DNA from: Kaistella treverensis
GTDB lineage: Bacteria > Bacteroidota > Bacteroidia > Flavobacteriales > Weeksellaceae
DNA: 64,000 nt
Direction: 5' to 3'
Assembly (NCBI RefSeq): GCF_900114045.1
Contig: NZ_FORQ01000001.1
Coordinates: 248,001-312,000, forward strand
Each line of letters opens with the position of its first letter. Position 1 is the first letter of the stretch. The position numbers and the translations under genes were made by a program. The notes under the pieces were generated by a model. The model was not told the DNA's origin. It made no database searches and saw only the letters and a list, made by a program, of their open reading frames with translations. Below, piece after piece: positions 3,067 to 6,910 of the stretch.

Positions 3067-5343
3067 ATGAATTCCACCAATCTAAATTCGCGTCACGGAA
3101 GCAGTGCTGAAGGCAGCGAAAACTCAAAAATTTATTCTTCGAACGCCGAAAATCAAAACTCAATTCCTTATGCGGTTGGTACCATGCAACAAAAGCTTCG
3201 CAACACCGAAAATCTCGGGCCCAGCACGCTAAGTATTATTGCTGAAGCCGAAAAACGTGGCATTCCGTGGCGACGCTTAAACGATTCTTGCAAAATTCTG
3301 CTTGGACATGGCAAAAATCAGCAGATCATCCGCGCCACCATGACCGGAAAATCATCCTGTATCGCGGTGGAAACGGTAGACAATAAATATCAAACCAAAA
3401 ATATTTTAGATGACGCAGGTATTCCGGTGCCGCACGGTTCAATTTGCACTTCTATAGAAGATTTAGAGGTGATTTGTGAAGAACTGGGCTTTCCGCTAGT
3501 CATTAAACCTGCCGGTGCAAACCACGGTCGCGGTGTCTCCATCAATATCCAGGATTTGTTTTCAGCCAGACAGGCTTTTGATGAAGCAAAAGATTTCCGC
3601 TCTTCGGTGATGGTTGAAAAGTATGTTGAAGGTAAAGATTTCCGCCTTTTGGTCATCAATGGAAAATTGGTGGCAGCAGCGCAACGCCAGCCCGCTCAGG
3701 TCAAAGGCGATGGAAAATCCACTATAAGGGAATTAATTGACAAAGTAAACGCCGACCCAAACCGTGGTGAAGGCCATCTCAAAGTTCTAACCAAAATCTC
3801 CGTGGATGCAGATACCGAGAAATTACTCAACCAAAAAAACTATACTCTTGAAAACGTTCCTGCTGAAAATGAAACGGTTGTTTTGAAATCAACAGCCAAT
3901 CTCAGTACCGGCGGAACAGCGATTGACGTCACTGATAGAGTGCACCTGGAAAACCGGTTTTTGGCCGAAAGAACTGCCGCATTTCTGGGCTTGGATATTT
4001 GTGGGATTGATATCATCACTCCCGACATTGCAGTTCCACTTGCGGAAAATAACGGTGCCGTCATCGAAGTGAATGCCGCGCCGGGCTTCAGAATGCATCT
4101 TGCTCCTTCGGAAGGTCAGCGACGAAATGTTGCCGCTGCTGTCATCGATATGCTTTTTCCGGCTGAAAAACCCAGCACCATTCCCATTTTTGCCATCACA
4201 GGAACGAATGGCAAAACCACTGTCACCCGGCTTCTGGCACATTTAGCCCAAACTTGCGGTTATTCTCCGGGTTTTACCACCACCGACGGGATCTCTGTCG
4301 CTGGGCACGAAATCGTTAAGGGCGACTGCTCCGGTTCTTCCAGTGCTGCGCTGGTTTTAGCCGATCCTCTAGTAGATTTTGCGGTATTGGAAACGGCACG
4401 CGGCGGACTGCTGCGCGCAGGACTAGCCTTTGATGAATGCGACGTAGGAATCCTGACCAATATTGCGGCTGATCATTTAGGTCTCAAGAACATCAATACA
4501 TTGGAGGAATTGGCCGAGGTAAAAGCAGCTGTGCTACGAAGCGTAAAAAAGGATGGTTGGGCGGTGCTGAATGCTCAGGACCACCGTTGCGTTCAAATCG
4601 CAAATACTTTGAACTGTAATATAGCCTATTTTTCACTGGAAACCAACCCAACGGTTGAAGAACATCTCTGGAAGGGAGGCTTAGTGGTGACGGTTGAGGA
4701 CGGAAATGTCGTTGTAATAAAAAGGAATGAAAAAGCCATAATTTCAAGCATTCAGGATATTCCGCTCACATTGAACGGTACTTCCCGATGTATGACGGCG
4801 AATATTCTGGCCGCCACTGCCGCCGCCTTTGCGTATGGTTTTTCTGCAACGCAGATCAAAGAGGCGTGGCAGACTTTTTTACCTGGTCCGGAACAGACAC
4901 CAGGGCGGATGAACCATTTTACAATCCGCGATTTTTCGGTATTGGTCGATTACGCGCATAATCCGCACGGTGTCCGTGAAATGCAGGACTATCTGAGCCA
5001 TGTGCAGGCATCACGTAAGGTCGGAATTATTGCCGCAGTGGGCGACCGGCGTGATGAAGATATTATAGAACTTGCTGAACTTGCCGGCCAGATGTTTGAC
5101 CAAATCATCATCCGTCAGGATAGCAGCTTACGGGGCCGAGAACTGGACGAAATGAACACTCTAATGATCCGCGGCCTGGAAAGAAGCTGTCGGAAAGTAC
5201 CGTACAAGATAATTCCCGACGAAAAAGAAGCCATCCGCTTTGCCCTTAAAGCTGCCATTCCAGGCGATTTTATCGTCGCGCTGAGCGATAATTATCAGGA
5301 GGTTATTAAGATTATTAAAGAATTTGCGCCTGAACTTGCTTAA
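3067..5343 (+). CDS. cphA: Cyanophycin synthetase lacking the usual N domain
   Basis: Builds cyanophycin, a storage polymer of aspartate and arginine, using ATP; acts in the cytoplasm. After about 38 low-complexity Ser/Asn-rich residues the protein joins the family at GTMQQKL and LGPSTLSII. The ATP-grasp (G) domain follows at about 85-335 (LVIKPAGANHGRGVS, IEVNAAPGFRMH). The Mur-ligase-like (M) domain spans about 373-750, with the P-loop GTNGKTT at about 379-385 and a C-terminal part with VDYAHNPHG. Known CphA proteins run about 870-900 residues and begin with a domain of about 160 residues that starts like MKIL and holds the growing polymer; this one has 758 and no such domain. The ATG at 3067 is the first in this frame after a stop near 2989. 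cphB follows after 26 bases, which supports the substrate. Confidence 0.9.
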   Translation: MNSTNLNSRHGSSAEGSENSKIYSSNAENQNSIPYAVGTMQQKLRNTENLGPSTLSIIAEAEKRGIPWRRLNDSCKILLGHGKNQQIIRATMTGKSSCIAVETVDNKYQTKNILDDAGIPVPHGSICTSIEDLEVICEELGFPLVIKPAGANHGRGVSINIQDLFSARQAFDEAKDFRSSVMVEKYVEGKDFRLLVINGKLVAAAQRQPAQVKGDGKSTIRELIDKVNADPNRGEGHLKVLTKISVDADTEKLLNQKNYTLENVPAENETVVLKSTANLSTGGTAIDVTDRVHLENRFLAERTAAFLGLDICGIDIITPDIAVPLAENNGAVIEVNAAPGFRMHLAPSEGQRRNVAAAVIDMLFPAEKPSTIPIFAITGTNGKTTVTRLLAHLAQTCGYSPGFTTTDGISVAGHEIVKGDCSGSSSAALVLADPLVDFAVLETARGGLLRAGLAFDECDVGILTNIAADHLGLKNINTLEELAEVKAAVLRSVKKDGWAVLNAQDHRCVQIANTLNCNIAYFSLETNPTVEEHLWKGGLVVTVEDGNVVVIKRNEKAIISSIQDIPLTLNGTSRCMTANILAATAAAFAYGFSATQIKEAWQTFLPGPEQTPGRMNHFTIRDFSVLVDYAHNPHGVREMQDYLSHVQASRKVGIIAAVGDRRDEDIIELAELAGQMFDQIIIRQDSSLRGRELDEMNTLMIRGLERSCRKVPYKIIPDEKEAIRFALKAAIPGDFIVALSDNYQEVIKIIKEFAPELA

Positions 5344-5369: not shown

Positions 5370-5984
5370 ATGACGAAAGGAAAAATTTTAATTGTAGGTG
5401 GTGCGGAAGATAAGGAAGGCAACCGCGACGCCTATAACGACGAAACCATTTTGCAGCGCTTTATTGAAGAAACCCGGCATAAAAAGTGCTCGCGCATTGA
5501 GATTATCACCTCCGCTTCATCGATTCCCGAAGAAATGGGGAAGCAGTACGTAAAAACTTTCAAAAGACTGGGCGCCGAAAATTGCGGTTTTCTTTTGATG
5601 AAGACGAGACACGAAGCAGATCAACCTGAAAATCTGGAACGGTTAAAAAAAGCCGATGCGGTTTTTACCACGGGCGGCTCGCAACTTGCGCTCACTACTA
5701 CGCTCGGCGGTACCGAATTTTACCGAATTTTACTTGAAAAGCTCGAAAAAACTGATTTCGTTTATGCGGGCACTTCGGCTGGAGCCGCTGCCGCTTCGGA
5801 GAGCATGATTATTGAAGGGGCCAGTTCGGAGGCAGAATTTAAAGGTGGCGTAACCAGTGCCACAGGTTTTGGCTTCATCAAGCATATCGTTTTTGACACC
5901 CATTTTATTGAGCGCGGACGTATTGCGCGGCTTTTTCAGGTCGTGGTAAGTAATCCCACGGTTTTAGGCGTTGGTTTGGAGTAA
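5370..5984 (+). CDS. cphB: Cyanophycinase, stopped by in-frame TAA at the catalytic glutamate codon
   Basis: Serine exopeptidase of the S51 type that cuts cyanophycin into beta-Asp-Arg dipeptides. The start LIVGGAEDKEG and the nucleophile elbow GTSAGAA (Ser136) are clear, as is DTHFIERGRIARL with His178 and the arginines of the substrate pocket. Translation ends at TAA (5982-5984, codon 205) after GVGLE, and the same frame continues NTALLFHRNKMEAIG, which is normal family sequence. Relative to the Synechocystis enzyme (Ser132, His174, Glu201, from memory), Ser and His are each shifted by four, and position 205 is exactly where the triad glutamate should be. The stopped product lacks this residue and the last about 75 residues, so it should be inactive unless the stop is read through. 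Confidence 0.9.
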   Translation: MTKGKILIVGGAEDKEGNRDAYNDETILQRFIEETRHKKCSRIEIITSASSIPEEMGKQYVKTFKRLGAENCGFLLMKTRHEADQPENLERLKKADAVFTTGGSQLALTTTLGGTEFYRILLEKLEKTDFVYAGTSAGAAAASESMIIEGASSEAEFKGGVTSATGFGFIKHIVFDTHFIERGRIARLFQVVVSNPTVLGVGLE

Positions 5985-6209
5985 AATACCGCCTTGCTCT
6001 TCCATCGGAATAAAATGGAAGCCATCGGCTCGGGGGCTGCCATTCTGCTTGACGGCAGGGATGTCAGCAAAAGCAATCTGATGGAAGTGGTGAATGGCGC
6101 GCCCCTTTCCATTGAAAATATGACTTTACACCTGATGAGCAAACACGATATTTTCGATTTGGAGAAACGCACTTTAGAAATTAAAAATCCACCCGAGGCT
6201 AAAAAATAA
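5985..6209 (+). pseudogene. cphB: Cyanophycinase C-terminal part after the in-frame stop
   Basis: This continues the cphB frame without any shift and ends at TAA (6207-6209). It holds FHRNKMEAIGSGAAILLDGRD and LMEVVNGAPLSIENMTLH, both ordinary cyanophycinase C-terminal sequence. The whole 5370-6209 span would encode about 279 residues, the normal length for the family. There is no good independent start; TTG at 5994 and ATG at 6015 are the only early candidates. Confidence 0.78.
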
Positions 6210-6306: not shown

Positions 6307-6463
6307 TTACCATAAAACAAAAATTGCCTCGATGAGCAACGAAAATTTTGCTGTTTAAACTACTTTTTAGTGTCGGCACCAGCAATTTTGTGTTTATGCC
6401 TGAAGCTCATGAAGACATTTGGAGAAATAAACAATTGCTAACTTTACACATTAAATAAGTTTC

Positions 6464-6910
6464 ATGCCTCACCGTTTCCAGGACCAAAACCACCGCCTCA
6501 GCCATTTCCAGGATCACGTAGATGTTGTCTGTCGGGGCTGTGGCAAAAATGCAACAGCCACTGCAGATCATGATAAAAAAGAAGCCCGCATGTACTGTCT
6601 GCAATGCGGTTATTCAAAAACGGTAAGCACAAGCGTTGAGGTAGCGGGAATCCGCGGCGACTTACAAATCGCTGCACACGAATATTTCGGCGCTAAGTTG
6701 TGGTTCGCGGCGCCTTTTAAAAGCGAAGAATTTTTCGCTTTTAACCGCGAACACCTCGATTATCTGGAAGCCTATATTTCCGCCACATTGCGCGAACATA
6801 CAGAACGCAGCCATTTTACCCTGCTGGAAAAGCTGCCGCGCTTTTATCACGAAGCCAAAAACCGCGAGGCGTTGCTGAAACTTATCGCAAAACTTAAAAC
6901 AAAAAAATAA
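6464..6910 (+). CDS. Zinc-ribbon protein of unknown function
   Basis: 148-residue soluble protein. Cys23, Cys26, Cys45 and Cys48 form a CxxC-x18-CxxC zinc ribbon (VCRGCGK, YCLQCGY) near the start. This is followed by a region that does not match a family I recognise but is rich in aromatic and charged residues (FGAKLWFAAPFKSEEFFAF, then two helical stretches). The His/Gln-rich first 18 residues (MPHRFQDQNHRLSHFQDH) are unusual. The ribbon could bind nucleic acid or a partner protein. The gene stands alone: cphB ends about 250 bases upstream, and a strong hairpin begins right at its stop codon. A TAACTTTA box near 6437 is one mismatch from the promoter consensus. Confidence 0.7.
   Translation: MPHRFQDQNHRLSHFQDHVDVVCRGCGKNATATADHDKKEARMYCLQCGYSKTVSTSVEVAGIRGDLQIAAHEYFGAKLWFAAPFKSEEFFAFNREHLDYLEAYISATLREHTERSHFTLLEKLPRFYHEAKNREALLKLIAKLKTKK

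Follow-up and report, generated by a model that had tools for sequence, protein, structure and literature searches.

A gene of the cyanophycinase family in Kaistella treverensis (cphB2) carries an in-frame stop codon where the third residue of the catalytic triad is expected. A preliminary description of the locus left three readings side by side, namely a recent inactivation of polymer breakdown, a site of stop-codon readthrough, or a base error, and the question is which of them the gene, its relatives and the remainder of the genome favor. The DNA analysed is a stretch of 64,000 nucleotides, referred to here as the window, which belongs to a genome (G000) of 2.38 Mb in 10 contigs with an estimated completeness of 99.96%. 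The features concerned are the following:

3067..5343, + strand: cphA2, the partner cyanophycin synthetase, which has no N domain (TIGR02068 positions 149–861 only; PF18921 absent).
5370..5984, + strand: 5' part of cphB2, 204 codons followed by the premature stop (TIGR02069, Peptidase_S51).
5982..5984, + strand: premature TAA, codon 205, aligned with Glu201 of Synechocystis CphB.
5985..6209, + strand: remainder of cphB2 downstream of the premature stop, 74 codons plus the original stop (TIGR02069 positions 193–248, predicted secondary structure, purifying selection).

The frame from 5370 to 6209 reads as cyanophycinase throughout, with the TAA at 5982–5984 (codon 205) as its single interruption, no frameshift and an original end at the TAA at 6207–6209. 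The piece before the stop corresponds to positions 1–190 of the TIGR02069 profile and the piece after it to positions 193–248, in agreement with the earlier statement that the frame continues unshifted. The first 204 codons alone reach 172 bits, above the family cut-off of 126.6, and also match Peptidase_S51. Identity to the closest intact copies is 70–76%. Both the nucleophile Ser136 (in GTSAG) and the triad residue His178 (in DTHF) are present, while the third residue is missing, as TAA occupies the codon at which all aligned relatives have Glu. Judged from its sequence, cphB2 is a descendant of the cyanophycinase family and its product, as written, an incomplete member.

The offset from Synechocystis numbering is four at each of the three positions (Ser136/132, His178/174, codon 205/201), and Glu201 of the Synechocystis enzyme is what we take to be the third member of the triad. 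When an X was placed at the stop, phmmer aligned the protein without gaps around the site to the structures 3en0, 7uqw and 7uqv, all of which have Glu opposite the stop codon; together with the relatives, this bears out the proposal that the stop falls on the catalytic Glu. The title of PDB entry 7uqw furthermore supports Ser132 as the nucleophile. In the S51 peptidase MccG, the third triad residue is Asp (PMC9239234).

A predicted model of cphB2 read through the stop adopts the cyanophycinase fold (mean pLDDT 84) and superimposes on 7uqv, 7uqw and 3en0 with TM-scores of 0.81–0.85. The gene thus resembles known CphB (TIGR02069, MEROPS S51; PDB 3en0, 7uqw) in fold, with TM-scores of 0.83–0.85, in the triad Ser and His, in its motifs and in its read-through length, but differs in having a stop at Glu and a product of 204 instead of 279 residues. 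The best match in both sequence and structure is 7uqv, the “pseudo-CphB” of Pseudobacteroides cellulosolvens, which, in contrast to cphB2, is of full length with Glu present and owes that name to its depositors; a literature search found no paper on this entry. Six strands of the predicted structure come from residues 206–279. A product that ends before them would thus be missing a large share of the fold as well as the triad Glu, in line with the earlier expectation of a protein without this residue and about 75 residues shorter.

The genome contains a second cyanophycinase, the core copy, which is intact (G000:C10:434060-434902, L032) and shares 51% identity with cphB2 over the first 200 residues. 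Both belong to the same family, the triad residues are present in the core copy, and the two differ in their surroundings: the core gene is divergent from a full-length cyanophycin synthetase of 873 residues with the N domain PF18921, whereas cphB2 follows the synthetase that lacks this domain. A member of the Asparaginase_2 family, to which isoaspartyl peptidases belong, is encoded close to the core gene. Since an intact core cyanophycinase, a full synthetase and the Asparaginase_2 gene are found in the same genome, polymer breakdown overall is not lost. The proposed recent inactivation of polymer breakdown therefore probably applies to cphB2 itself and is too strong for the pathway. In the literature searched, no paper links cyanophycin with Kaistella.

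Relatives were located by a scan of genome contigs, which returned 80 loci with the alignment as query and nothing with the window protein alone. Each of the 36 searched genomes of the genus has the core copy, with no stop seen in it, and the spare copy occurs in eight (the window genome and seven others) as well as in two further genomes of the family outside the genus. At codon 205, each of the genus's seven other spare copies has either GAA or GAG, and the core copy has GAA, which fits the suggested one-base change from GAA to TAA. The residue Glu205 is invariant among 19 aligned relatives, and among the approximately 150 best family-wide matches listed, an internal stop is seen in the window gene only. 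None of the nine other genomes with a spare copy has an in-frame stop in it, and the copy in G016 is frameshifted near its start. A disrupted frame with intact orthologues elsewhere is what is expected of a pseudogene.

How old the stop may be was approached through the sequence that follows it. Identity to relatives is about equal before and after the stop, and among sites that do not vary across the four nearest copies, cphB2 has private changes at 11 of 124 before it and at 4 of 46 after it. A branch codon model gave an omega of 0.026 for the tail, with synonymous sites saturated on the cphB2 branch and the branch length at its bound; omega = 1 was worse by 16.6 log units, rejecting neutrality, and relaxed selection downstream of the stop was accordingly not seen in this model. 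Its use as a clock was rejected on these two grounds, no relaxation and saturated synonymous sites. The tail was thus under purifying selection over most of the branch, as expected of a very young lesion, though a base error or a tail that is still made would also fit. Due to the saturation, “young” is a coarse term, relative only to the divergence from those other species in which cphB2 is retained.

Comparison of the locus in near relatives, as proposed in the preliminary description, revealed intact copies with Glu and, in addition, several other breaks. The nearest relative, G020, is collinear with the window at approximately 94% DNA identity and has kept cphA2 with cphB2 deleted, so that the end of cphA2 runs directly into what lies downstream of cphB2 in the window. 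In two other species the cassette is broken: G024 has an in-frame TAG in an accessory full-length cphA (L037 4560-4562) followed by an intact cphB2, and in G016 cphB2 has lost its start codon and carries a one-base deletion in the first strand (L039 5940-6180). The cphA2-cphB2 pair is dispensable, and the cyanophycinase in particular has been lost in several species of the genus. Across Kaistella and its near relatives, the genes of this accessory cassette break and are lost one at a time. As a separate observation, G020 contains approximately 8.5 kb of extra DNA (L174-L175) after the cassette ends and before the gene at position 6464 of the window (window 6397-6463).

The position of the stop on a catalytic codon requires no special cause. 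In cphB2, 86 of the 279 codons are one substitution away from a stop, two of them triad codons (Ser136 and Glu205), which gives a random nonsense mutation a chance of about 2% of striking the triad. Given this chance, and since the pattern was noticed afterwards, it is regarded as a coincidence.

Taken as a whole, the evidence makes it very probable that cphB2 is a genuine cyanophycinase paralogue, the second gene of an accessory cphA2-cphB2 pair, which was recently inactivated by one nonsense substitution; the spare copy is probably dead and the main copy is intact. A single substitution at the catalytic Glu codon would have yielded a product of 204 residues which, lacking the triad Glu and the last six strands, would be inactive and probably unstable. 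The intact core cyanophycinase would still degrade cyanophycin from either synthetase, assuming that the two cyanophycinases are redundant in the cell, and the resulting dipeptides could be cut by the Asparaginase_2 family enzyme encoded near core cphB. As a nonsense pseudogene, cphB2 has little importance beyond annotation, where pipelines may list a short, non-working “cyanophycinase” or infer a loss of cyanophycin use despite an intact core pathway.

The alternative that survives best is an error of assembly or base calling, with a living strain that has GAA and a working second cyanophycinase. Constraint before and after the stop is indistinguishable, the rest of the gene appears fully maintained, for which a base error would account equally well, and Glu is found in all cphB2 orthologues. 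Moreover, another nonsense codon private to this genome is found 5 kb away, in a second copy of ligD (17-2668, − strand), which is otherwise also constrained: an in-frame TAA at 716-718 (codon 651, GEQFY*KDVTG), where orthologues have Tyr or Phe, between the ligase part and the rest of the protein, with a tail that is still constrained (dN 0.007, dS 0.21 against G020). On the other side, in comparison with the syntenic 80 kb of G020, 62 of the 63 ORFs in the window and 59 of the 63 in G020 are collinear and free of stops and frame changes, with ligD the only clear nonsense case in a gene shared by the two. Since this comparison is nearly clean, the assembly is not generally error-ridden. Both stop-bearing genes are furthermore second copies, another intact ligD being present at C10:466077, and cphB2 is deleted in G020 and two further species carry a broken cassette. 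Because the same gene or cassette has decayed elsewhere, a base error is the lesser possibility and an unlikely one, and real decay of cphB2 is the likelier account. The two private stops, 5 kb apart in dispensable genes, reflect a pair of young losses or, with lower probability, a pair of local errors. A mutator was also considered, as the changes in cphB2 and ligD both fit G:C to T:A, and was rejected because the genome has an open mutY and two events are no proof; for mutM, the TIGR00577 profile gave matches below the cut-off only, and control genomes including Bacteroides were likewise without a match.

It is considerably less probable that the tail is still used, by readthrough of the stop or by re-initiation, such that some full-length or two-piece enzyme is made and selection keeps the tail. 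Purifying selection on the tail would be explained in this way, in-frame TTG and ATG codons follow at 5994 and 6015, and RNA downstream of the stop has a slightly more stable predicted fold than shuffled sequences. Against this, none of the 37 tRNA matches in the genome has an anticodon for a stop codon, no Rfam match was obtained, and TAA ends 39 of the 50 long ORFs of the window, including cphA2. A stop at this position occurs in no other genome of those searched, and the nearest relative has no cphB2. Of the signs of recoding looked for (a suppressor tRNA, a recoding signal, a conserved stop) none was found, the fold reaching a z of only -1.8, and the suggested readthrough site is thereby not upheld. 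Two separate pieces would be unable to rebuild the triad, as the stop replaces Glu itself. A reassigned genetic code was rejected, given that TAA ends most window genes.

Hardly credible is a selected pseudoenzyme of 204 residues that binds cyanophycin without cutting it and serves the adjoining synthetase, which would suit a partner without a polymer-binding N domain and the constraint on codons 1–204. An enzyme that was active until recently would show this constraint anyway. An intact cphB2 is kept in four genomes that have this type of synthetase, G020 keeps the N-domain-less synthetase without any cphB2, and the product has lost six strands of the fold. Even the broader proposition, that the tail is still translated or the truncated protein acts as a polymer-binding stand-in for the missing N domain, is very improbable.

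The synthetase of this pair is itself the more unusual of the two genes, its missing N domain being less ordinary than the stop codon in cphB2. The gene cphA2, which ends 26 bases before the start of cphB2, encodes ATP-grasp and Mur-ligase domains, and approximately 48 residues precede its LGPST motif, whereas the other complete synthetases that were compared have 139 or more. The same architecture is common to five other genomes, namely G020, G021, G015 (K. pullorum), G081 and G086, bringing the loci to six genomes of Kaistella and near relatives (window, L033, L034/L050, L046/L049, L047 and L175, the last in G020). According to PMC9262961, every CphA1 enzyme contains the N domain, whose role is to bind the polymer and, in the majority of these enzymes, to cut it into primers; in this respect cphA2 differs from CphA1. 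The core synthetase of the window genome has the C-x19-HxxEH motif of the primer-cutting site of the N domain, and cphA2 may depend on primers made by this core enzyme. Set against the published universality of the CphA1 N domain, an N-domain-less CphA2 offers testable biochemistry.

Compared with its counterpart in G020, cphA2 (window 3148-5323) is 96–97% identical in codons 450–600 and 57–86% identical elsewhere, with flanking genes at approximately 94%. This mosaic pattern suggests recombination between divergent alleles, that is, allele replacement. A further type of cyanophycin synthetase, of 853 residues, was seen in two other genomes (L036 and L040, in G026 and G028), where it lies beside two unidentified genes, and in G028 it adjoins a third cyanophycinase that is 37% identical to the window copy.
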